Assembly: GCA_022562055.1 (NCBI GenBank)
Contig: JADFQA010000019.1
Location: forward strand, 1-61,302
DNA: 61,302 nucleotides
Direction: 5' to 3'
Source of the DNA: Acidobacteriota bacterium
Lineage (GTDB): Bacteria > Actinomycetota > Acidimicrobiia > Spongiisociales > UBA5794
A model generated the notes under the pieces. That model ran no database searches. It had not been told where the DNA came from and saw only the letters and a list, made by a program, of their open reading frames with translations. The first letter of the stretch is position 1, and each line of letters begins with the position of its first letter. Both the position numbers and the translations under genes were made by a program. Positions 3,838 through 14,451 of the stretch are shown here, one piece after another.

Positions 3838-3859
3838 TTCGAATAGCGTCCCGTCAGGT
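3838..3859. repeat. 22-bp dispersed repeat, copy 1
   Basis: The sequence ending GTCCCGTCAGGT is matched at 9961-9982 with two differences in 22 bases. It starts six bases after the damaged tRNA-Ala. The second copy overlaps the end of a coiled-coil gene remnant. It may mark an old recombination or insertion boundary. Confidence 0.45.
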
Positions 3860-3889
3860 GGTCTTGACGGTTCTTACTAGAACAACCGA

Positions 3890-3982: not shown

Positions 3983-6900
3983 TCATCGTCTGTCGCCAAT
4001 GGCGTAGATCTGGTGGGAGGTGGATGCGACGATGAGGGTGCCATTGGGGGCGACTGCTATGGATGCGTGTAGCTCGAAGGCGTCGTGGATCTGTTTTCCG
4101 TTGCCGGTACAGTTGGCTTTCGGTGCGATCTCGCTTGATCCTGCCGGGACGATTCGCCACCTGGTTTGGCCGTTGATGGCATCGAAGGCTTGTACGGATC
4201 CGTCTGGGCGGGGGAGTATGACGAGGTCACCCACGACGATGGCTGATGCCCATTGTTTCTCGCATGAGACTCCGGTCTGAGTTGCCCAGGTTGCCCTACC
4301 GGTGGTCGTGTTGATTCCTTGGACGCCGTGTGAGAGCGAGCTCGCGATGATGAGTGTGTCTCTGTATCTGGCGGGTGAATTTCGCAGGTTGGCGAAGTCA
4401 CTTGGTTGGTTGGAATCCGAGCCCCACCAGTCGATCGTGCCGACGTATCGATCGAGTGCGATGAGCGATGGATTCCCTGAGCCTCCGTCGATGGCGTATG
4501 AAACGATCAGTTTGTCATCTGCAACGGTGGGTGTCGCGTACACGGTGACGGGATCCGTGATGTCGCCTTCGGGGCGGGTCGGATCTCTGCGTGTGAGTTC
4601 GATCTGTGTTCGCCACATCGGGAACCCGTCAAGAGTGAAGGCAGCGGCGTCGCCATGGTCACTGACCGCGTACACCATCGTCCCGTCCGATGCGGCACCG
4701 CCTCTTATCGCTCCATCGAATTGTGCATGCCATCGTTCCGTCCCGTCGACGTTGAGACCCCACAGGACACCGGATCCGTCTCCGACGATCACAAGGTTCT
4801 CGACGATGAGTGGGTTTGTGAATACCGGCGAACCGACGCGGAAGCTCCAGATCTGTCGGCCGGTTGTGAGATCGATACCCCACACGGTCCCTTCGTCACC
4901 TGTCGCAACGATCAAGTCACCGCTCGCGGCGACACCATTCACATCGTTGGAAGCACCAAAGTGCCACCGTACTTGGCCGGTTCTCAGATCTAGCGCGTAC
5001 ACGCCATCTGCGGCATCACCAATACCGCGCCGGTCACCTGCGCTTCCGACGACGACGAGACCGTTTGTGATGATCGGACTGTTCAACCATCCCGATATGC
5101 CGACATTGGCTCGCCACAATATGGTTGGCGTGAGGATCGGATCAGCTCGTGAACATCCAGATCGGGTCATATCACCTTGAAACGTGGTCCAGTCTGAGCC
5201 AGCAGCTACACATTCGGTAACCAGCGAACGATCGGGTTCGGTGAGGGCCGTGAGGAACGCGGCTGCGATGGGGCCCGACGTGGCGCCGCCGGAGGCGCCG
5301 CCTTCAACATTGATTGCGAACGCGAGATCGCCGGAGAACCCAACGAACCACGCCACCGTCCCCAGGCCATCCGCCGTCGCTATCTGTGCAGTTCCGGTCT
5401 TGCCTGCAACATCCAGCCCGCCAACCCTGGCGGCTTGACCGGTGCCGTGATCGACGACGGCTTTCATCATCATTCGCAAGCTTTCGACCACATCTGGGTC
5501 GAGAACCTCGGTGGGTTCGGTATCGGACCCCGAAACCAGTGTCGGTGGGTGCCGCACTCCGGACGCAGCGGTTGCCGCGACGATTGCAAGGTTGAGCGGA
5601 CTTGCGAGGACCTTTCCCTGTCCAATGGACGATGCCGCGTTCTCAACGGGGTCGGTGGAAACCTCGAAGAAGGAGTCTGCAGCCCGTATCCCTATTTCGA
5701 TGTGGTCGCCGAAGCCGAACTTGTAAGCCATCTGGGCGATGGCTTCGGGTCCGAGATCTGCCGCTAGTTGGATGAATGCGGTGTTGCATGACTGGGCGAA
5801 CGCATCTTCGAATGTCATCGACGACGGCAGCGATGCGGCGTTGCCGAATTCCTTTCCCGAGACGTTGACCGAACGTGGGCAGGAAACGAGCGTGTCAGGC
5901 TCCAGGCCGTCCTCGAGAAGGGCGGCTGCCACGATGATCTTGAACGTGGATGCCGGCGGGTATAGCCCGTTTGTTGTCCGCCTGAATCCGTCCGCGGGGG
6001 TACTCGCTGCTGCGCGGATCTCTCCTGTGTTGATGTCGATGGCAACGATCGATGCCGGAAGAGCGATGCCGTTAAGTGCTTTCTCAGCTGCCCGTTGTAC
6101 GTCAAACGACAACGTTGTTCTCACGTCGGACGCAGGTGTTCCTTGGAATGCCTTGATCGTTTCGATTGAACCGTCAGCGCCACGTCGAACGATCCGTCTC
6201 GTGGGTGTTCCAGCGAGTTCACGTTCGAAGGAGGATTCGAGACCAGATACGCCCACTACTGAACCTGGCGCATACGGGCTTCCAAGGGCGGCCAATGACT
6301 CAGCGGTAACTTCACCGGTCGTGCCGAGCAGTAGGGCAGCCCCTCCCGGCTGAACAGGTACCCGTGTCGGCTCCAGTCGGAATGTCACTCCCGGGACCGG
6401 AAACAGACCGGGCCGAACCTCTACATAGTCCTCACGGCCAATGGTGGTCACCGGCAGGAACCAGTCGGGTTGAACGCCGGGCCTGTCAAGGACACCGTCG
6501 ATGACATCGCCCGACACATCGAGCAGCTCCTCGAACGCGTTGACAACATCCTCTCGAGAAACGATCCGTTCCGGGACCAGCCCAATCGTGACCCGCGGAA
6601 TCGATCTGGTCAGTGGCCGACCATCGGTGTCAGTGATCAGGCCGCGCTGCGGCCATGTACTGATGAGATCGAGCCGATCTCCAGCGCCGAGGGCTGGGTG
6701 CATGACCTGCTCATCCCAGACAACGGCCCAGTCATTGTCGTCGCTCAAGGTAAGGCTGACCCTGGAGTCATACTCCCACGTGCCGACGTCTTCGATCTCG
6801 ACGACAGCGTGGAAGGGCACCTGGGCGTTTGCTCCGTTGATCTGAGGAGCACCAAGGGTGAAACGGACACCCATGACATGGAGCTCCTTCCACCATTCCC

Positions 6901-7156
6901 TAAGCGTGTCGTCAACCTGCGACTCTGAAGCCGATACGAGACCCGAGATCGTCGCCCAGTCAGAGCCTTCCCATGCCGTTAGGAAGCGTTCAGCGGTGAA
7001 TTCGGGACTCACGCTTGGAACATCGACAGTGGATGGCCCGGCTCGATCTGAGAGGACTAAGAGTGTGACGGCTACAGCGACCCCAACCGCGACGACGACT
7101 CCAGCCAGCTTGCTGGCTGGCTGCAATTTGCCAACTAGAGAGTCGCCCTTGGTCAT
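3983..7156 (-). CDS. Class B penicillin-binding protein fused to a PQQ-type beta-propeller
   Basis: A 1057-aa protein from ATG 7156, with a GGAGAGG some 13 bases upstream. An in-frame GTG at 7234 is an alternative start. Order: one N-terminal membrane helix (about residues 16-36), an NTF2-like/MecA-N-type domain, a PBP dimerisation region, a transpeptidase domain, then from about residue 640 a propeller of PQQ-like repeats (W-x-F...G-x-V-Y-A-L-D blades). Transpeptidase motifs are complete: S403-T-F-K406, S456-C-N and K586-T-G-T. It should cross-link peptidoglycan outside the membrane. The fused propeller, ending in VASTSHQIYAIGDRR, is unusual and may bind a ligand or protein. It is the last gene of an operon with an anti-sigma-like protein and an ECF-type sigma factor, which points to an envelope-stress role. 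Confidence 0.9.
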   Translation of the reverse strand: MTKGDSLVGKLQPASKLAGVVVAVGVAVAVTLLVLSDRAGPSTVDVPSVSPEFTAERFLTAWEGSDWATISGLVSASESQVDDTLREWWKELHVMGVRFTLGAPQINGANAQVPFHAVVEIEDVGTWEYDSRVSLTLSDDNDWAVVWDEQVMHPALGAGDRLDLISTWPQRGLITDTDGRPLTRSIPRVTIGLVPERIVSREDVVNAFEELLDVSGDVIDGVLDRPGVQPDWFLPVTTIGREDYVEVRPGLFPVPGVTFRLEPTRVPVQPGGAALLLGTTGEVTAESLAALGSPYAPGSVVGVSGLESSFERELAGTPTRRIVRRGADGSIETIKAFQGTPASDVRTTLSFDVQRAAEKALNGIALPASIVAIDINTGEIRAAASTPADGFRRTTNGLYPPASTFKIIVAAALLEDGLEPDTLVSCPRSVNVSGKEFGNAASLPSSMTFEDAFAQSCNTAFIQLAADLGPEAIAQMAYKFGFGDHIEIGIRAADSFFEVSTDPVENAASSIGQGKVLASPLNLAIVAATAASGVRHPPTLVSGSDTEPTEVLDPDVVESLRMMMKAVVDHGTGQAARVGGLDVAGKTGTAQIATADGLGTVAWFVGFSGDLAFAINVEGGASGGATSGPIAAAFLTALTEPDRSLVTECVAAGSDWTTFQGDMTRSGCSRADPILTPTILWRANVGISGWLNSPIITNGLVVVGSAGDRRGIGDAADGVYALDLRTGQVRWHFGASNDVNGVAASGDLIVATGDEGTVWGIDLTTGRQIWSFRVGSPVFTNPLIVENLVIVGDGSGVLWGLNVDGTERWHAQFDGAIRGGAASDGTMVYAVSDHGDAAAFTLDGFPMWRTQIELTRRDPTRPEGDITDPVTVYATPTVADDKLIVSYAIDGGSGNPSLIALDRYVGTIDWWGSDSNQPSDFANLRNSPARYRDTLIIASSLSHGVQGINTTTGRATWATQTGVSCEKQWASAIVVGDLVILPRPDGSVQAFDAINGQTRWRIVPAGSSEIAPKANCTGNGKQIHDAFELHASIAVAPNGTLIVASTSHQIYAIGDRR

Positions 7157-7237
7157 CTCATCACCGGAACCTCTCCCGAAGGCGCTCCACGACGCGTGAC
7201 AGTCGGGACCTGATCGTCGACGATCGCGTCGCACGGA

Positions 7238-9169
7238 TCACGGAGGAGCCAATCCCTCAACGAACCGGAGGTCTTCAACGAGACTGATAAGGTGATCGAG
7301 GCCCAGCCAGGACCACACTCGGTAGCTGCAGTCGTTGTTGAGCCACACCTGAGCGGTGGATTGTGGCAGAGTGCTTTCGCCTGTCTCTGGGTCGATGTCG
7401 TTGTACGGGCCGGTGGTCGAGGGTCTGGGGATGATCGCAAAGCTCCCGTCATCCCAGTCGAATCGGTATGCAGGCCATTGTGCCCAGTCAGGGAAGCCCT
7501 GGTCGATCGAGAATATGCTTCCGAGCGGGACGCCGTACGCCGAACGCCCGCAGTCCGTGCAGGGACTGCTGTCGCCTCGGGACCCTGGGCCGTCCGGGTT
7601 GTCATATGACACGGTGCTTCCGAATCCGCCGAGGCGCGGCACCGCGTCATCGTCTTGATCGACAAGTCCTAGGGCAGGACACACCTGGTGTTCGGGATCA
7701 GACCAGCCGAGAACCAGTTCTCTGGGAACCAGGCCCTTGTCGAGCGGCGGATTGGACCACGGTGCCGCTCCTGAACTGGCTATTTCGACGTGTGTCACGA
7801 CAACCTCTACGTGCTGTTCGAACGTCAACGGGTCTCCCGGTTTAGGATCGGTGGAGACGATCGTGCCCCCGTCACCCTGTGTCGCTGGTCGTTCGACGAA
7901 GTCGACCTGATATGAGCCGCGAAGGCGCCACACCGCCTCGATGGATCGCCATGGCTTGCCGATGAGGTCAGGCATCGTTTCGGTGAGGGTGTCAGGTCCA
8001 CCTACGATCCTTGCCCAGTCGCTGACCCCGTCGGATGATTCCCAGATGCCTGGTAGGCGATCCCCGTCTGTACCGACCGCTACGTATCGGTGTCCGTCGT
8101 ACGTGATGCCCGAGAGTTGGAGAGTCCCGAGAGTCACGGTCTCCTCCCATCCGTCAGGCGTCCACAGCAATATGGCGCCCTCCCTTGAGATGCCGGGGTC
8201 GATGCGGTCGACCGATTGTGTTCCCGTTGCGACCACCCCGTCAGGTCCCTCAGCAATGTCACGGAGGTCGAAGTCCCATCCAAGATCCTGCTCGATTCGA
8301 GCCCACTCGCCGTCGGTATCGAGCACCAGCGTGATGAGCGCGTTTCGGTTGTCCATACCTGTGAGACCGATCGCGCCATCAGAAGCGTCGAACGCGTATA
8401 GGAAGCGTTGACCGTCGCGAATTAGGTCGGGGGGAATCTCGATGGTCGACCACGTAACACCATCAGTGGATCGGTGGATCCGTGTGCTGGTCGGGATCCC
8501 GTGACCCTGCTGCGAGAAACCGATCAGGACGAGCTCACCGTCGACGGCAGCCATGACCTCCGATACCTCGACCACGTCGAAAGATATCGAATCCCAGTCC
8601 AGTCCATTCGAAGTCGTGAACACCATGACTGTGGGCTCCTCGGAATCTTCCTCACGGATCACACCGATTGCGAGTATCTGGCCATTCCAGCTCGTCATCG
8701 ACGAGATATTCCAAACGGTCCCTGTCTCAGCGGTGATAGCTGTTGGAACCCACAACGCGGCATCGGTAGAAAACCACGTCGATGCGCGGCCGGATTCTGG
8801 ATCAAACCCAACCGCCACATAGCCCCACGACGCGGCAACGATCTGAGTCAAATCGACACTCAACCCCGGAAGGGCACCAAACGCCGTGCCATCAGGTGGT
8901 GGCAGAACCCCGATCGTTGTCGAGACGATCGGTCCGACCGGCAACGTTGTCACCGTCGTCGGCTCATCCACCACCGGATCGTCAGCCACCCACCGCACCA
9001 GGAACGGTACGAACCCGATCGCGACAGCCACGAAGACGAGCGCCACCGCGAGAACTAGTGCTGCAGGATATGAACGACCATCGACCGCAACGGCAGGTCG
9101 AACGGTTGGATCGACACGCTCTACAACATCTTCGTAGTAGACACGAAGCTGTATACCGAGATCAGACAT
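7238..9169 (-). CDS. Membrane anti-sigma-like protein with beta-propeller and PASTA-like segment
   Basis: 643 aa from ATG 9169. A short cytoplasmic N-terminus (MSDLGIQLRVYYEDVVERVD) is followed by one membrane helix at about residues 36-60. A large extracellular region has repeated S-x-D-G-x-x-W motifs typical of sialidase/BNR-like beta-propellers. Around residues 398-460 a PASTA-like unit begins MPDLIGKPWRSIEAV and ends in VVVTHVE; PASTA units bind muropeptides or beta-lactams. Its start overlaps the sigma-factor stop by eight bases (ATGTCTGA), giving translational coupling. The paralogue at 12189-13946 has nearly the same first 20 residues. The anti-sigma role is inferred from this pairing; no zinc-binding ASD motif is visible. 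Confidence 0.75.
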   Translation of the reverse strand: MSDLGIQLRVYYEDVVERVDPTVRPAVAVDGRSYPAALVLAVALVFVAVAIGFVPFLVRWVADDPVVDEPTTVTTLPVGPIVSTTIGVLPPPDGTAFGALPGLSVDLTQIVAASWGYVAVGFDPESGRASTWFSTDAALWVPTAITAETGTVWNISSMTSWNGQILAIGVIREEDSEEPTVMVFTTSNGLDWDSISFDVVEVSEVMAAVDGELVLIGFSQQGHGIPTSTRIHRSTDGVTWSTIEIPPDLIRDGQRFLYAFDASDGAIGLTGMDNRNALITLVLDTDGEWARIEQDLGWDFDLRDIAEGPDGVVATGTQSVDRIDPGISREGAILLWTPDGWEETVTLGTLQLSGITYDGHRYVAVGTDGDRLPGIWESSDGVSDWARIVGGPDTLTETMPDLIGKPWRSIEAVWRLRGSYQVDFVERPATQGDGGTIVSTDPKPGDPLTFEQHVEVVVTHVEIASSGAAPWSNPPLDKGLVPRELVLGWSDPEHQVCPALGLVDQDDDAVPRLGGFGSTVSYDNPDGPGSRGDSSPCTDCGRSAYGVPLGSIFSIDQGFPDWAQWPAYRFDWDDGSFAIIPRPSTTGPYNDIDPETGESTLPQSTAQVWLNNDCSYRVWSWLGLDHLISLVEDLRFVEGLAPP

Positions 9170-9620
9170 CTGAGACCACCCCCAAACCATCACGCAGCTT
9201 TACGAGACCGCGCTGTACATGTTTCTGCACCGAAGAACGCGACACACCAGTCAATTCCGCAACCTCACTCTGGGTCCAGCCAAACCCTTCAACCAACACC
9301 ACAGCCACCCGTTGGTTCCGCGACAACGACGCCAATGCCGCCGGAAGTTTCGGCTCGACCCAGTGCTCGCTTGCTGTCGAGACCTCTGGAGCAATTGGAG
9401 GTCTTTGACGTCGATAGCGACGCACCTTCGATTGCCCAACACGAAACAGATATCCAACGGGGTTCGACATGTCAGAAATGCGTTCCCAATGTTCCCACGC
9501 ATACGCAACTGCTTCTGCAGTAGCTTCCCGACCAAGCTCTGGTCCGTATGCAGCAGCAAAGGCGAAAGACAGACGGCGCTCGGCGCCCACTACAAACGTC
9601 TCGAACTCGCTAACCGTCAT
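9162..9620 (-). CDS. ECF-type RNA polymerase sigma factor
   Basis: 152 aa from ATG 9620. Region 2 is seen in FAFAAAYGPELGREATAEAV and the WEHW...NPVGYLFRVGQSKVRR stretch. Region 4 helix-turn-helix is seen in LVEGFGWTQSEVAELTGVS followed by SSVQKHVQRGLVKLR. A promoter-like motif shared with the paralogous sigma gene lies 25 bases upstream, suggesting autoregulation. Aligning the paralogue at 14397 places its TTG start exactly at this ATG. The stop is embedded in the start of the anti-sigma-like gene. It likely drives the downstream PBP-propeller gene. Confidence 0.85.
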   Translation of the reverse strand: MTVSEFETFVVGAERRLSFAFAAAYGPELGREATAEAVAYAWEHWERISDMSNPVGYLFRVGQSKVRRYRRQRPPIAPEVSTASEHWVEPKLPAALASLSRNQRVAVVLVEGFGWTQSEVAELTGVSRSSVQKHVQRGLVKLRDGLGVVSDV

Positions 9621-9644
9621 ATACCACCCGGGTCTCACAACAAG

Positions 9645-9673
9645 TAAACCATCGAACACGCACGGATGATGAC
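9645..9673 (-). promoter_or_regulatory. Sigma-type promoter motif, copy 1
   Basis: On the minus strand: GTCATC, 17 bases, GGTTTA. The same two boxes at the same spacing occur at 14423-14451, 14527-14555 and 14580-14608. Downstream bases ACTTGTTGTGAGA are identical between this copy and the 14423 copy. It lies just upstream of the sigma gene, consistent with recognition by its own product. Confidence 0.6.
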
Positions 9674-9880
9674 AACGCTCAAATCTAGATGCTGATCTTA
9701 CGAATCGGGTGATCTGACGGGCCTTACTAGAACCAAGATTTCATGCAACGGCACGCTGTCATCGTGAGGGAGGCGGACTAGCCCATCAGCGTTGGTTTTG
9801 CGACCCTCGCCAGCTCGGGGGATTGGGTCGAGTGGGTGATCGGAAGGCCTTGCGCCACAGGCCCGACTGTGGCGTGATCT

Positions 9881-9967
9881 ACTCATGTTGTGCGACACAC
9901 AGCGCTTCGAGTTCGACCGTTTTCTCTTGTAGGTCAACGGTTCTTCGGTCGAGAATGGAGTTCAAAT
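9881..9967 (-). repeat. Coiled-coil coding fragment, copy 1 (87 bp)
   Basis: This aligns without gaps over 87 bases to 17072-17158. On the minus strand both copies encode a similar coiled coil: NSILDRRTVDLQEKTVELE here and NSILERRTVELEEKTGDLE in the other. Most differences are conservative, so it evolved as protein-coding sequence. This copy ends in a stop (VAQHE*) and has an in-frame stop 14 codons upstream. It is a gene remnant. Confidence 0.6.
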
Positions 9968-9982
9968 AGTGTCCCGTCAGGT
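9961..9982. repeat. 22-bp dispersed repeat, copy 2
   Basis: This matches 3838-3859 with two differences in 22 bases, sharing GTCCCGTCAGGT. It overlaps the boundary of the coiled-coil remnant. Confidence 0.45.
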
Positions 9983-10125: not shown

Positions 10126-10176
10126 GTCTGATTACGGATCAGAAGGTTGGGGGTTCGAGTCCCTCCGGGCGTGCCA
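10126..10176 (+). tRNA. 3' half of tRNA-Arg (ACG): likely attachment-site remnant
   Basis: The anticodon arm (TCTGA / TCAGA, loop TTACGGA, anticodon ACG), variable loop, T-arm (GGGGG TTCGAGT CCCTC), 3' acceptor strand CGGGCGT, G73 and encoded CCA are all present. Upstream there is no D-arm and no 5' acceptor strand ACGCCCG. Half-tRNAs of this type are left where integrative elements recombine in tRNA genes. It adjoins the left end of an IS1182-type remnant. It is not a functional tRNA. Confidence 0.75.
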
Positions 10177-10256
10177 CGGAAACCCTTGCACTCGGGGCTG
10201 TCGCATGAATGTGCGTGGTTCTCGCGTTTTGGTGTGCCGCGCGGGACCATGGTGTC

Positions 10257-10592
10257 ATGGTGAATTTACGTACTGTTGAGCGGGATCAGTTGTTGTTGAT
10301 GCCACCGTCGTTGTCTGACTGGTTGCCTTCGGATCATTTGGCGTGGTTCATTGTTGATGTGGTCGCCGAGTTGGATCTGTCGGGGTTCTATTGGTCGCTG
10401 CGGATCGACGGTCGGGGCGGTGCTTCGTACGACCCGGAAGTCATGCTTGGCATCTTGTTGTATGCGTACTGTGTGGGGGAACGATCGAGCCGCCGTATTG
10501 AGCAACGTCTCTGTGACGATGTCGCGTTCCGGGTGATTGCCGCGAACCAGCAGCCGGATCATGCCACGTTGGCCCGGTTCCGTCTTGGTCGC
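10257..10592 (+). mobile_element. IS1182-type transposase, 5' fragment
   Basis: The first about 112 residues of a DUF772/IS1182-like transposase, starting ATG 10257. It shows the family's LMPPSLSDWLPSDHLAWFIV block and the LLYAYCVGERSSRRIEQRL helix. Homology ends after DHATLARFR at about 10590. From there the sequence is that of an ECF sigma-factor gene in another frame, and the catalytic C-terminal part is absent. The element is dead. Confidence 0.85.
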
Positions 10593-11019
10593 CTGGCGTC
10601 GATTTGATGTGGTGTTGGCGGCAGATTATCCGACCGCATGGCTGTACTCGGTTGCGCGGCGCGTGTTGGCCAACAAGCGAAAACGGTCGAGGCGTAACGA
10701 GAACACCGCGGAACGTGCCGGTGCTCTTGCTCTGCCGATACGGCTCGACGGCCCGGCAGACGATGCCATACACGTGCTCGAGCTCGACAAGGTGTTTACG
10801 GCGATGACACAGTTTTCCGACGCTGACCAAGAACTGCTCGTCCTTGCCGCGCTCGATCAGCTATCGCACGCCGAGATCGCCGTCGTGCTCGATATCCCAG
10901 TCAAGACGACCAAATCCCGCGTGTACCGGGCAAGACAGCGGTTGCAGGATCGGCTCGTCCAGAAGGAGTCGCCGACGAGGTTGCGCACCGCCCCAGAAGG
11001 AGGTATCCCCAATGTCTGA
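10587..11019 (+). pseudogene. ECF sigma factor truncated at its 5' end
   Basis: The reading frame shows sigma region 2.3-2.4 (AWRRFDVVLAADYPTAWLYS then ARRVLANKRKRSRR) and an intact region 4 (LDQLSHAEIAVVLDIPVKTT followed by KSRVYRARQRLQDRL). Everything before AWRRFD is missing and replaced by the IS1182 remnant in a different frame, so core-binding region 2.1-2.2 is lost. GTG codons at about 10609 could give a short product. The stop overlaps the next gene's ATG by eight bases (ATGTCTGA), as in the other two sigma modules. Confidence 0.85.
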
Positions 11020-11683
11020 TCCCGATGTTTTCGATTTGTTGCGCGAACTCGATCCGGCTCTTGGCAGTGAGCCTCCTGGCTCGAGCAGTGCATCCGCGCG
11101 GAGAATTCGCCGTCGAATCGCCGCGGGAGCTGGCGAAGGGCGTGGGCGAAGACTGGTTCGTCTCGCTGTCATCGTGGGAGGCGCGCTCCTTGTATTGACT
11201 GGTATTGCGATCGCGACGGTGTCTTATCTAGACCGTTCGGTGATTCTTCAGTCCGAGGGCCGAGAGCTTGAGCAGGGTACCGAGAGCTTGGGACGTAGCA
11301 TCACAGTCGACGGTGCGACGTGGACCGTGATTGGATACGGAACGACCGACGGTTATAGCTGCGTCGACTTCGAACTGACGATTCGGGGAGTCTTCGAAGG
11401 CTCGATCGGTGATTGTGGCGAGCGTCCCGTGGGGCCGTTCTTCGGCGGGGGTTCCGGAGGGGTCCGAGATGGTGAAACAATGAGGGTTCTCTTGACGGGT
11501 AGCTCTGATCCGACGATCACTCGAGTCACCGCGACCGACGTTTTCGGGCATACCCTCACGGATCAACCCGTCGACGGGATATGGTTGATCGTTCCGCGAC
11601 CAGACACATCTTCGTGGGTCGTAGAAGCGTTTGACGCAAACGGCGACAGAGTCGCCCGCATCGACATCGAGCACAGGTCGTAG
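11012..11683 (+). CDS. Membrane anti-sigma-like protein of the broken sigma pair
   Basis: 223 aa from ATG 11012, with a strong AGAAGGAGG site at 10996-11003 inside the sigma gene. The cytoplasmic N-terminus (MSDPDVFDLLRELDPAL) carries a basic stretch, then one membrane helix at about residues 50-71 (LAVIVGGALLVLTGIAIATV) and an extracellular beta-rich domain of about 150 residues. No zinc-binding ASD motif is seen, so the anti-sigma role is inferred from coupling. Its partner sigma factor is truncated, so this protein is probably orphaned. Confidence 0.65.
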   Translation: MSDPDVFDLLRELDPALGSEPPGSSSASARRIRRRIAAGAGEGRGRRLVRLAVIVGGALLVLTGIAIATVSYLDRSVILQSEGRELEQGTESLGRSITVDGATWTVIGYGTTDGYSCVDFELTIRGVFEGSIGDCGERPVGPFFGGGSGGVRDGETMRVLLTGSSDPTITRVTATDVFGHTLTDQPVDGIWLIVPRPDTSSWVVEAFDANGDRVARIDIEHRS

Positions 11684-12188: not shown

Positions 12189-13946
12189 CTAGCAGTTCGC
12201 GATCCGGATGAATCGGGCGGCGAGTTCTCTGACGGGGTCGTGGTCGAACTGTGGCAGTGGTGCCTGAGTGTTCGAACGGTCGCCTTGGATGTTCATAGTG
12301 ATGCTGATTCCGCCGCAGTTGGCTGTTGCCAGCATCGCCCATCCGTCTGGTCCGATTCCATAACTCAACGTGACGCCGTCGACTTCGACTGAGTCGTGGT
12401 CGAGTCCAGAGCCGACGGTTGCGAAGACGGGGCTAGGACTGTCGCCCTCATAAACCCATGCGTAGATGGTTCCGTGCCACGGTTCCATACTTTCGTGGTC
12501 AAACGTGACATCGATTGGTGGAGGCCCTGAATCCTGCGTGCTCGAAGGTGAACGACGCTGAGGTTCCTCGACAATGTTCGTGGCTCCGATCGCTTCGAGG
12601 ATATTCGTGATCCATTCGACGCTGTACACGTCGCGCAGCTCGTTGTTGCCATCTGCGGGGCTAACGAGAGTCGGGTCGAGCCAGGGAGAGGATGCCAGCA
12701 GGGCCGTGACATCATCGAGCGTCATGTTCGGTGCCGCTTCTATGAGCATCCATAAGGCAATGTACGGAACCTCAACGGCGGCATACCAACGTGTCACTCC
12801 GCGGTCGGAATCTCCCCATGCACGGTAGGTCAAGCCGCCACCGAGCGACACGTCTTGGCCTGCTGGCAGTACAGGTGGCATGTCAGGGGGCATGACTTCT
12901 GGCGGCGGTTCGGGATGGTCGTCCTGTGTGTTCCAGCCGACGATCCTGAAGGTGTCTCCTTCGAGGTTGCAGAAGGTCGCAGCGGAACCGCGAACCGGCT
13001 GCTCGAGGGCATCGAAGCCTGGAACAACGGCCACAGCAAGAGACACGACACATTGAACGAATCCCTCGGGGATCGTCATCCCAAGGTAGATCGCACCGGC
13101 ACGGGTCTCTATGCGGTTCACGGTCAGTTTTTGGAGCATGGGTGCGGCAGCCTGCAGGTATTGCGGGTCAGGCGCGGGGAGTTCATACCCGGGCAGTTCC
13201 ATGATGAAGTGGCGGCGCCGTCCGCCGGTTCTCACGCTCGCTTCGATCCCTCCATCGATCACCCAGCCTGTGAGGTTCTGACCTGAACCGATCGTGTCCT
13301 GGTGATATTCGCCACCGGATGCTTGGAGGGCGTCGTAGTCCACGTAGTCTAGAATGCCGCCGTCTGCGTTGCGGGTAACGGCCCTGGCGACGAGATTCCC
13401 CGTAGCGTTGAGGCCCGCCCATGCCATCGCTCCGCTCGGGAACTGAACCGCATCGAGACATGCAATCGCGTCGTCGCGGTAGACCGGGATCACCAACGCG
13501 ACATCTTCGACCGTCACCGAAGTCCACGCCCCGAGGTCGGCGAACGCGCTCATCCGCGCGACCGCCCATTCTGCAAGGAGATCGTGGGCACCACACGCGG
13601 GCAGTTCAAAGAACGGAACCAGCAGCGGATTCTTGAACACAGCGCGCGGCACATCCTCGACCACCACCGTGGTCGCGGGAGAGATTTCTTCAGCCGCGAT
13701 CGTCGTCGATGGTGGCGCGATCGTTGTTGTTGTTGTTGTTTTTTCCACGGCAGGCTCTATTCCTACCCACCGAGCGAGGAACGGTGCCAGGCCGATTCCA
13801 ACCAGAACGAAGAGCGCGGTAGCGGCAAGAACCAACAGTGGACGATACGTCGGCTCCGATACGGACGGACTTGGTGGCGTCATTGGATCGACGCGCTCGA
13901 CCACGTCCTCGTAGTAGCTGCGGATCTGGAATCCAAGATCAGACAT
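12189..13946 (-). CDS. Membrane anti-sigma-like protein, second module
   Basis: 585 aa. The N-terminus MSDLGFQIRSYYEDVVERVD is nearly identical to that of the 7238-9169 paralogue. It is followed by one membrane helix at about 36-57 (LLVLAATALFVLVGIGLAPF), a Thr-rich linker (KTTTTTTIAPPSTT) and a long extracellular region unlike that of the paralogue. This region has no clear propeller or PASTA unit, and several cysteines that could form disulphides. Its start overlaps the sigma stop by ATGTCTGA. It probably holds the sigma factor at the membrane; the shared N-terminus is the likely sigma-binding part. Confidence 0.7.
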   Translation of the reverse strand: MSDLGFQIRSYYEDVVERVDPMTPPSPSVSEPTYRPLLVLAATALFVLVGIGLAPFLARWVGIEPAVEKTTTTTTIAPPSTTIAAEEISPATTVVVEDVPRAVFKNPLLVPFFELPACGAHDLLAEWAVARMSAFADLGAWTSVTVEDVALVIPVYRDDAIACLDAVQFPSGAMAWAGLNATGNLVARAVTRNADGGILDYVDYDALQASGGEYHQDTIGSGQNLTGWVIDGGIEASVRTGGRRRHFIMELPGYELPAPDPQYLQAAAPMLQKLTVNRIETRAGAIYLGMTIPEGFVQCVVSLAVAVVPGFDALEQPVRGSAATFCNLEGDTFRIVGWNTQDDHPEPPPEVMPPDMPPVLPAGQDVSLGGGLTYRAWGDSDRGVTRWYAAVEVPYIALWMLIEAAPNMTLDDVTALLASSPWLDPTLVSPADGNNELRDVYSVEWITNILEAIGATNIVEEPQRRSPSSTQDSGPPPIDVTFDHESMEPWHGTIYAWVYEGDSPSPVFATVGSGLDHDSVEVDGVTLSYGIGPDGWAMLATANCGGISITMNIQGDRSNTQAPLPQFDHDPVRELAARFIRIANC

Positions 13947-14397
13947 CAGACTCGACTCCCAACTCTTGTCGTAAACTCGCCAGTCCCCGACTGAGATGCT
14001 TCTGAATCGACGACCGTGAAATCCCGGTCAACTGCGCGACTTCGTCTTGCGTCCATTCGAAACCCTCAACCAGCACGACCGCCAACCGCTGACGCTGCGA
14101 CAAGGCTGCCAAGGCGGCGGGGAGCCCGGGCTCGACCCACGGTTCCCGGTCGATTGGTGCGTCCGGGGCGACCCGGGTTCTATGTCGGCGATGCAGACGC
14201 ACCCGAGACTGACCGACCCGATAGAGGTATCCCACAGGATTCGACATAGCGGACAACCGATCCCAGTGCTCCCACGCGTACGCGACGGACTCGGCTGTTG
14301 CTTCCCGACCGAGCTCCGGTCCATACGCGGCAGCGAAGGCGAAAGACAGCCGTTGCTCCGCATCGCGCACGAACACCTCAAACTCCGAAGCGGCCAA
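13939..14397 (-). CDS. ECF-type sigma factor, second module
   Basis: 152 aa from TTG 14397, chosen because it aligns with the ATG of the paralogue at 9620. It is closely related to that paralogue over its full length: FAFAAAYGPELGREATAESV in region 2, and EGFEWTQDEVAQLTGISRSS then IQKHLSRGLASLR in region 4. Two promoter motifs of the shared type lie upstream (14423-14451 and 14527-14555), suggesting autoregulation. The stop is embedded in the start of the anti-sigma-like gene. Confidence 0.85.
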   Translation of the reverse strand: MAASEFEVFVRDAEQRLSFAFAAAYGPELGREATAESVAYAWEHWDRLSAMSNPVGYLYRVGQSRVRLHRRHRTRVAPDAPIDREPWVEPGLPAALAALSQRQRLAVVLVEGFEWTQDEVAQLTGISRSSIQKHLSRGLASLRQELGVESDV

Positions 14398-14422
14398 AGC
14401 CCACCCGATCTCTCACAACAAG

Positions 14423-14451
14423 TAAACCAAATAGAACGCCTGGGTGATGAC
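14423..14451 (-). promoter_or_regulatory. Sigma-type promoter motif, copy 2
   Basis: GTCATC, 17 bases, GGTTTA on the minus strand, 26 bases upstream of the second sigma gene. The 13 bases after the -10 box match those of copy 1. This is the expected position for an autoregulated sigma promoter. Confidence 0.6.

Follow-up and report, generated by a model that had tools for sequence, protein, structure and literature searches.

A stretch of 61,302 nucleotides from a genome of the class Acidimicrobiia (contig JADFQA010000019.1; the whole stretch is hereafter called the window) carries, on the minus strand at 3983-9673, a three-gene operon encoding an extracytoplasmic function (ECF) sigma factor, then a membrane partner with a single transmembrane (TM) helix, and then a class B3 penicillin-binding protein (PBP) fused to a beta-propeller (Table 1). 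On balance, we slightly favour reading this operon as an autoregulated sigma/partner pair coupled to a dedicated PBP, the pair belonging to a family of Acidimicrobiia whose outside sensors can be swapped. An earlier note on this DNA had placed three linked genes there and had recognized in them an ECF-type sigma factor, an outside part combining a propeller with a PASTA-like unit, and a transpeptidase fused to a second propeller. All three genes are present at that place and on that strand, and the domain searches and models recovered each of these parts, the PASTA-like unit with a reservation given below.

Table 1. Coordinates of the operon, its domains and the second sigma/partner pair in the window
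Feature	Position	Strand	Remarks
ECF sigma factor (P0003)	9162..9620	-	152 aa from ATG 9620; sigma2 and sigma4; Pfam, NCBIfam, model
Membrane partner (P0002), putative anti-sigma	7238..9169	-	643 aa, single TM; 8-nt overlap with sigma gene
Short cytoplasmic N-terminal motif, residues 1-35 of P0002	9065..9169	-	MSDLGIQLRVYYEDVVERVDP...; putative anti-sigma domain; conserved in 79 aligned partners
TM helix, residues 36-62 of P0002	8984..9064	-	Helix in AlphaFold2 model; hydropathy peak in relatives
Extracellular beta-propeller, residues 106-389 of P0002	8003..8854	-	AlphaFold2 model, Foldseek, VIA-align
PASTA-like unit, residues 398-458 of P0002	7796..7978	-	PF03793, E 8.2e-5
Conserved Cys-rich C-terminal domain, residues 464-643 of P0002	7241..7780	-	GPG..G...C.DCGRG...; no Pfam name
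Class B3 (PBP2a/PBP5fm-like) PBP with BamB/PQQ propeller	3983..7156	-	ATG 7156 likely, GTG 7234 possible
MecA_N	6680-7006	-	Pfam, 8.9e-9
PBP_dimer, dimerisation	6164-6652	-	Pfam, 2.8e-18
Transpeptidase	5252-6052	-	Pfam, 5.9e-48; STFK 5939-5950, SCN, KTG 5392-5400
PQQ_2/BamB propeller	3995-5086	-	Pfam, 8.5e-29
Bipartite promoter-like motif, GTCATCA-N15-TGGTTTACT	9643..9673	-	In front of sigma gene P0003
Paralogous sigma P0005 of the second sigma/partner pair	13939..14397	-	72% identical to P0003
Paralogous membrane partner P0004	12189..13946	-	N-terminus and TM as P0002; outside part unrelated; no PBP behind

Sigma factor and membrane partner

The sigma factor P0003, whose likely start is taken as the ATG at 9620 (the listed GTG lies at 9659), matched Sigma70_r4_2 in Pfam (E 4.5e-13) together with a weak match to region 2 (E 0.11), and its whole chain aligns to ECFs with Z 13.6 over 150 residues when taken from the joined sigma/partner model described below. 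Consisting of sigma2 and a DNA-binding sigma4 only, it is an ECF (group IV) sigma factor. The best NCBIfam model, TIGR02983 of the SigE family, reached 63 bits, far under its cut-off of 141.6, which makes P0003 a relative rather than a member of that family; all 11 members of the P0003 family tested matched the same model, with scores below or near the cut-off, and they form an Acidimicrobiia-centred group of their own. Searching the order and a set of named genomes recovered 104 different sigmas of the P0003 family, of which L129 and most others come from metagenome-assembled genomes of Acidimicrobiia and one (L158) from Demequina pelophila. In a sample of the phylum, P0003-type sigmas were found only within the class at E<=1e-22. 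One locus (L214, 289-2676, plus strand) encodes a single chain of 795 aa in which an ECF sigma domain seems to be joined through a TM helix to an Asp-box propeller.

The partner gene starts inside the last codons of the sigma gene, overlapping its stop by 8 nt (ATGTCTGA). An open reading frame (ORF) overlaps the sigma gene in every one of the 97 family loci with enough downstream sequence, by 4 nt (29 loci), 8 nt (51), 11 nt (10) or 14 nt (7), where the overlapping ORF is the longest candidate and its start the one nearest to the sigma stop. The partners share the N-terminal motif M.[DE][LVI]..Q[LI]R.Y.[DE]...[PR][VI] across the 79 that were aligned, and in most of them a hydrophobic segment follows about 35-60 residues in, as seen in hydropathy profiles. 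Comparison of the sequences thus gives good support to the pairing of sigma and partner.

The second pair in the window displays the same division. Its sigma, P0005, is 72% identical to P0003, and its partner, P0004, is 55% identical to P0002 over residues 1-69 only, the rest being unrelated; a conserved N-terminus and TM helix with unrelated outside parts is what would be expected of a grip joined to a swappable sensor.

The N-terminus of P0002 gave no Pfam match, and no known anti-sigma domain was recognized in it. A structure prediction of the sigma with this segment, proposed as a check in the earlier note, was run on a joined chain of the sigma and partner residues 1-66, a modelling device that implies no frameshifting, using a 58-row alignment with window-derived bridging rows (mean predicted local distance difference test score, pLDDT, 80.7). 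The model contains a helix in the partner N-terminus (154-165, pLDDT ~82), and its sigma domains best match RpoE bound to NepR (5uxx; Z 13.6, root-mean-square deviation (rmsd) 3.2 over 150 residues), followed among anti-sigma-bound ECFs by SigW-RsiW (Z 10.8) and CnrH-CnrY (Z 10.3), while RNA-polymerase-bound ECFs fitted as a whole with rmsd ~27. The modelled arrangement of sigma2 and sigma4 thus resembles that of anti-sigma-bound ECFs and would fit an inhibited sigma.

The partner would accordingly be a candidate anti-sigma with a very short grip. In class II (CnrY/NepR) and class III (RsbN) anti-sigmas, too, the cytoplasmic segment is very short and lacks a zinc motif, although neither class has a recognized sequence relationship to the P0002 N-terminus. 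Class II fits in length (<50 aa) and in the helix, and the modelled sigma is nearest to NepR-bound RpoE, with CnrY-bound CnrH close. A class I anti-sigma (ZAS/RskA), defined by a multi-helix cytoplasmic domain of about 100 residues, often with HxxxCxxC, was rejected, P0002 having about 35 residues before the TM helix, no Cys/His motif there and no Pfam match.

Interchangeable outside sensors

The outside part of P0002 was examined in a whole-chain AlphaFold2 model (16-row alignment, mean pLDDT 65.8), whose confidence is highest over the propeller and the C-terminal region. Pfam did not recognize the propeller at residues 106-389. In the model this strand-rich region is nevertheless a propeller fold, with propeller proteins as the top Foldseek rows (best E 3e-7), VIA-align scores of Z 15-18.7 over 250-302 residues against solved propellers, and Asp-box-like repeats (S.DG..W) within it. 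Residues 464-643, overlooked in the earlier note, form a separate mixed domain in the model, in which W471, C537, C540, G541, R542, D574, G575, S576 and H626 are invariant. This Cys-rich domain is common to partners of other ECF sigmas at 28-36% identity with a conserved CxDCGR motif, and tandem copies of it are present in membrane proteins from seven relatives (L010, L011-L016). In L010 (892-2975, minus strand), the one of these loci that was read, a different ECF sigma of 193 aa precedes a membrane protein whose outside part contains the CxDCGRG domain twice. Two other identities were considered for P0002 and rejected, namely a PASTA kinase of the PknB/PrkC type, as there is no kinase domain and the cytoplasmic part is only about 35 residues long, and a BlaR-type sensor, as no protease domain was found.

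Across the family, the outside parts vary widely. Pfam searches of 73 partners detected PASTA in five, two-component-regulator propeller repeats in three, F5/8 type C in three and SnoaL_2 in three, while redoxin, PD40 and a PBP transpeptidase turned up in one partner each. PASTA scores in other family partners exceed the cut-off, for instance at 36.5 and 31.6 bits, and 28 of 97 partners contain at least three Asp-box-like repeats, compared with about one expected after shuffling. The transpeptidase case is L169 (863-3044, plus strand), where the sigma gene overlaps that of a 580-residue single-pass partner bearing PF00905 (5.6e-29) with SAMK and KTGT, possibly a one-piece sigma-linked beta-lactam sensor. 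As this partner carries a PBP transpeptidase domain and 5 of the 73 partners carry PASTA, the link of the family to the cell wall is strengthened, and the cell wall as signal is moderately supported. The membrane sensors BlaR1 and MecR1 also have a penicillin-binding domain, as in L169. Their signal runs by way of a metalloprotease and a repressor rather than a sigma factor, and no domain of this kind was found by Pfam search in the three operon proteins.

No description of a propeller or PASTA anti-sigma family was found in the open-access papers searched. A bolder reading, on balance less likely than not, is an undescribed class of ECF control in Acidimicrobiia, in which a short anti-sigma N-terminus encoded by an overlapping gene is joined to interchangeable outside sensors such as propellers, PASTA, redoxin and a PBP transpeptidase, and in which a PBP, an operon product here and a fused domain in L169, may let some members detect peptidoglycan or beta-lactams, a make unlike either BlaR1 or sigmaP. 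If the favoured reading of the operon is right, the family would unite one short inner segment with many outside sensors, its promoter, sigma and sensor specificities could be tested pairwise, and the segment of about 35 residues would be a candidate domain through which a short anti-sigma contact is made. The family also matters to annotation, as most of its partners currently have no family name.

Coupling to the PBP-propeller

The third gene encodes a class B3 PBP, having MecA_N, dimerisation and transpeptidase domains with the SxxK, SxN and KTG motifs intact as STFK, SCN and KTG. Its closest solved PBPs in structure comparison include Enterococcus faecium PBP5 and Staphylococcus aureus PBP2a, which share these domains and the intact motifs; the window PBP differs from both in carrying at its C-terminus a BamB/PQQ propeller, about 365 residues long, which matches designed and natural propellers. 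By its class, it would be expected to have low affinity for beta-lactams. In one family of the order (f8), PBP and propeller are separate genes.

The exact triad was found in two genomes only, the window and a genome from another family of the order (G128; QIDW01000464.1, SZUA-217), where the sigma is 81%, the partner (P0006) 68% over 643 of 643 residues without gaps, and the PBP 82% identical. All three genes are under purifying selection between the two, with ratios of non-synonymous to synonymous substitution of ~0.09 for the sigma, ~0.20 for the partner and ~0.19 for the PBP, so that the arrangement is unlikely to be accidental. The linkage in relatives that the earlier note had suggested looking for thus recurs, whereas a widespread conserved triad was rejected. 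The partner's propeller was found in 2 of 345 class genomes, and two genomes from the genus to which the window belongs gave no PBP-propeller at the search threshold. Such a patchy distribution makes transfer likely. The N-terminus and TM helix of the partner in G128 (QIRSYYEDVVERVDPMT...IGLAPFLARWV; L069:1272-1460) are as similar to P0004 as to P0002 (8984-9169), a likeness hinting at exchange between the paralogous partners.

Operonic coupling is supported by the 8-nt overlap of sigma and partner genes and by a GTGA overlap of partner and PBP genes in G128. The promoter-like motif in front of P0003 recurs with the same spacing before the second sigma at 14421-14451, and a search of the 2.93 Mb genome with at most 2 mismatches allowed returned only these two sites, although the motif was derived from them, so the search shows its uniqueness rather than a measured regulon. 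GTCATCA and TGGTTTACT also stand upstream of the sigma in G128 at the same spacing, and a related family motif, TGTCGCCCA...GATGGTCTA, precedes many relatives' sigmas; among 85 upstream regions, TGTC[AG][CT]C occurred in 20 (4.6 expected) and TGGTCTA-like sequences in 26 (2.6 expected). The sigma is therefore predicted, from these sequences, to be autoregulated, and since the motif of both window pairs is confined to these two sites in the genome, induction of the PBP together with its own sigma is predicted, in keeping with the earlier suggestion that the sigma induces a dedicated PBP.

In the mechanism that we propose, the cytoplasmic N-terminus of the partner would keep the sigma at the membrane, and the outside propeller, PASTA-like unit and Cys-rich domain would watch the cell wall, probably jointly with the operon's PBP. 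Wall damage, uncrosslinked peptidoglycan or a PBP-bound beta-lactam would then change the partner or lead to its cleavage, and the freed sigma would transcribe its own operon, yielding more PBP2a-type transpeptidase. We infer the binding of the sigma by the partner, the ligand (cell-wall fragments or beta-lactams, as the earlier note had it), the release by proteolysis and the PBP induction. If correct, this would add a circuit for sensing beta-lactams or the cell wall, with an inducible PBP2a-type enzyme, to a large and mostly uncultured actinobacterial class.

Judged by layout, the system would work most like sigmaP-RsiP-PbpP of Bacillus thuringiensis, in which a genetically linked PBP, PbpP, is the beta-lactam sensor (PMC8092216), without being an established member of it. 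The earlier note's remark that it knew of no described system with exactly these parts is hence too strong where the principle is concerned. In both cases an ECF sigma, a membrane partner and a linked PBP lie in one region, the sigma operon is autoregulated (as predicted here), and the expected signal concerns the cell wall or beta-lactams. Unlike PbpP, which is encoded outside the sigP-rsiP operon and is not induced by beta-lactams (PMC8092216, PMC8844934), the window PBP is encoded by the third operon gene and resembles PBP2a, with a propeller added at its end; the window partner, for its part, combines a very short N-terminus with a propeller outside the cell.

Because the linked PbpP senses beta-lactams for sigmaP-RsiP, the PBP in the window may be sensor as much as product. 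A stronger form of this, that it is mainly a sensor which passes a signal to the partner on binding a beta-lactam or stem peptide, its place in the operon only matching amounts, is unlikely but the most probable of the alternatives. The built-in transpeptidase domain of the L169 partner has the geometry of such a sensor, and the propellers on both PBP and partner could mediate contact; the operonic position and predicted induction of the window PBP, neither of which holds for PbpP, speak against it.

Several observations weigh against the reading of an autoregulated pair with a dedicated PBP. The joined model does not place the partner N-terminus relative to the sigma, and the closed sigma arrangement may be what AlphaFold gives by default for an ECF on its own. 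The correlation between sigma distances and N-terminus distances across the family (r 0.31; largest of 1000 permutations 0.09) supports the pairing but is confounded by shared descent. The PASTA unit of P0002 scored 22.9 bits, under the gathering cut-off of 23.2; since its homologue P0006 gave no match to PASTA at E<=0.01 and the model is of low confidence over residues 390-463, which include the unit, PASTA is likely here rather than established. Comparison of its profile with PASTA regions of sibling partners was weak, the profiles being shallow, and no solved PASTA was among the structural matches of this unconfidently modelled region. The PBP-propeller fusion also occurs in five genomes (G013, G036, G028, G019 and G021) with no P0003-family sigma nearby, so that the PBP does not need the circuit, and among the 83 family loci whose downstream sequence is long enough, a PBP lies behind the pair in the window and G128 alone. 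Silent-site divergence between these two is lower in the PBP (0.58) than in the partner (1.1) and the sigma (1.5), and the PBP may thus have a partly separate history.

The unlinked fusions and the lower silent divergence of the PBP would suit a passenger, that is, a free-standing PBP-propeller gene which landed behind the pair and is co-transcribed with it but has no functional link, the pair sensing another signal such as a propeller-bound glycan. Third genes behind other family pairs are diverse, several having signal- or lipoprotein-like N-termini, and the structural matches of the P0002 propeller include sugar-binding lectins. Nevertheless, two families of the order have the same three genes, tightly joined and in unchanged sequence, and PBP and PASTA domains recur in partners of the P0003 family, which leaves the passenger rather improbable. 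Least probable, and quite unlikely, is a partner acting as activator or plain co-transcribed sensor, in a FecR-like positive role or beside a sigma controlled mainly by transcription: no known anti-sigma domain is recognized in P0002 and FecR has an N-terminal stretch of 59 residues without which its ECF is not active (PMC7406223), so such partners can be needed, but the universal overlap with the sigma gene, the conserved short N-terminus, the closed arrangement in the model and the prevalence of membrane-anchored anti-sigmas as the commonest ECF control (PMC8103513) argue otherwise.

Neighbouring features

Between the two described pairs, the plus strand at 10209-11683 carries the N-terminal remnant of an insertion sequence (IS) transposase leading into a sigma-like ORF (10537-11019), followed by a membrane partner of its own; the start of region 2 is seemingly absent from this ORF, and the two together are apparently a broken third sigma pair. 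Adjoining the IS remnant, 10131-10190 (plus strand) corresponds to a tRNA 3' half with the anticodon loop TTACGGA but no recognizable 5' half, and ARAGORN called no tRNA there; four stretches elsewhere in the genome are similar to it with 2 mismatches, and it is possibly an old integration boundary. Direct repeats at 3838-3883, 9715-9733 and 9961-9982 (22 nt, 91%; 19 nt, 89%) flank the three-gene operon, their downstream copies lying directly behind tRNA-Ala, and the repeat-flanked operon is possibly a mobile unit. At 855-2144 on the plus strand, a protein of 429 aa contains a toprim-like stretch (LPIVLAEGSFDVEVL...ALFDNDSAA), which we take to resemble HEPN/Toprim defence-associated proteins.

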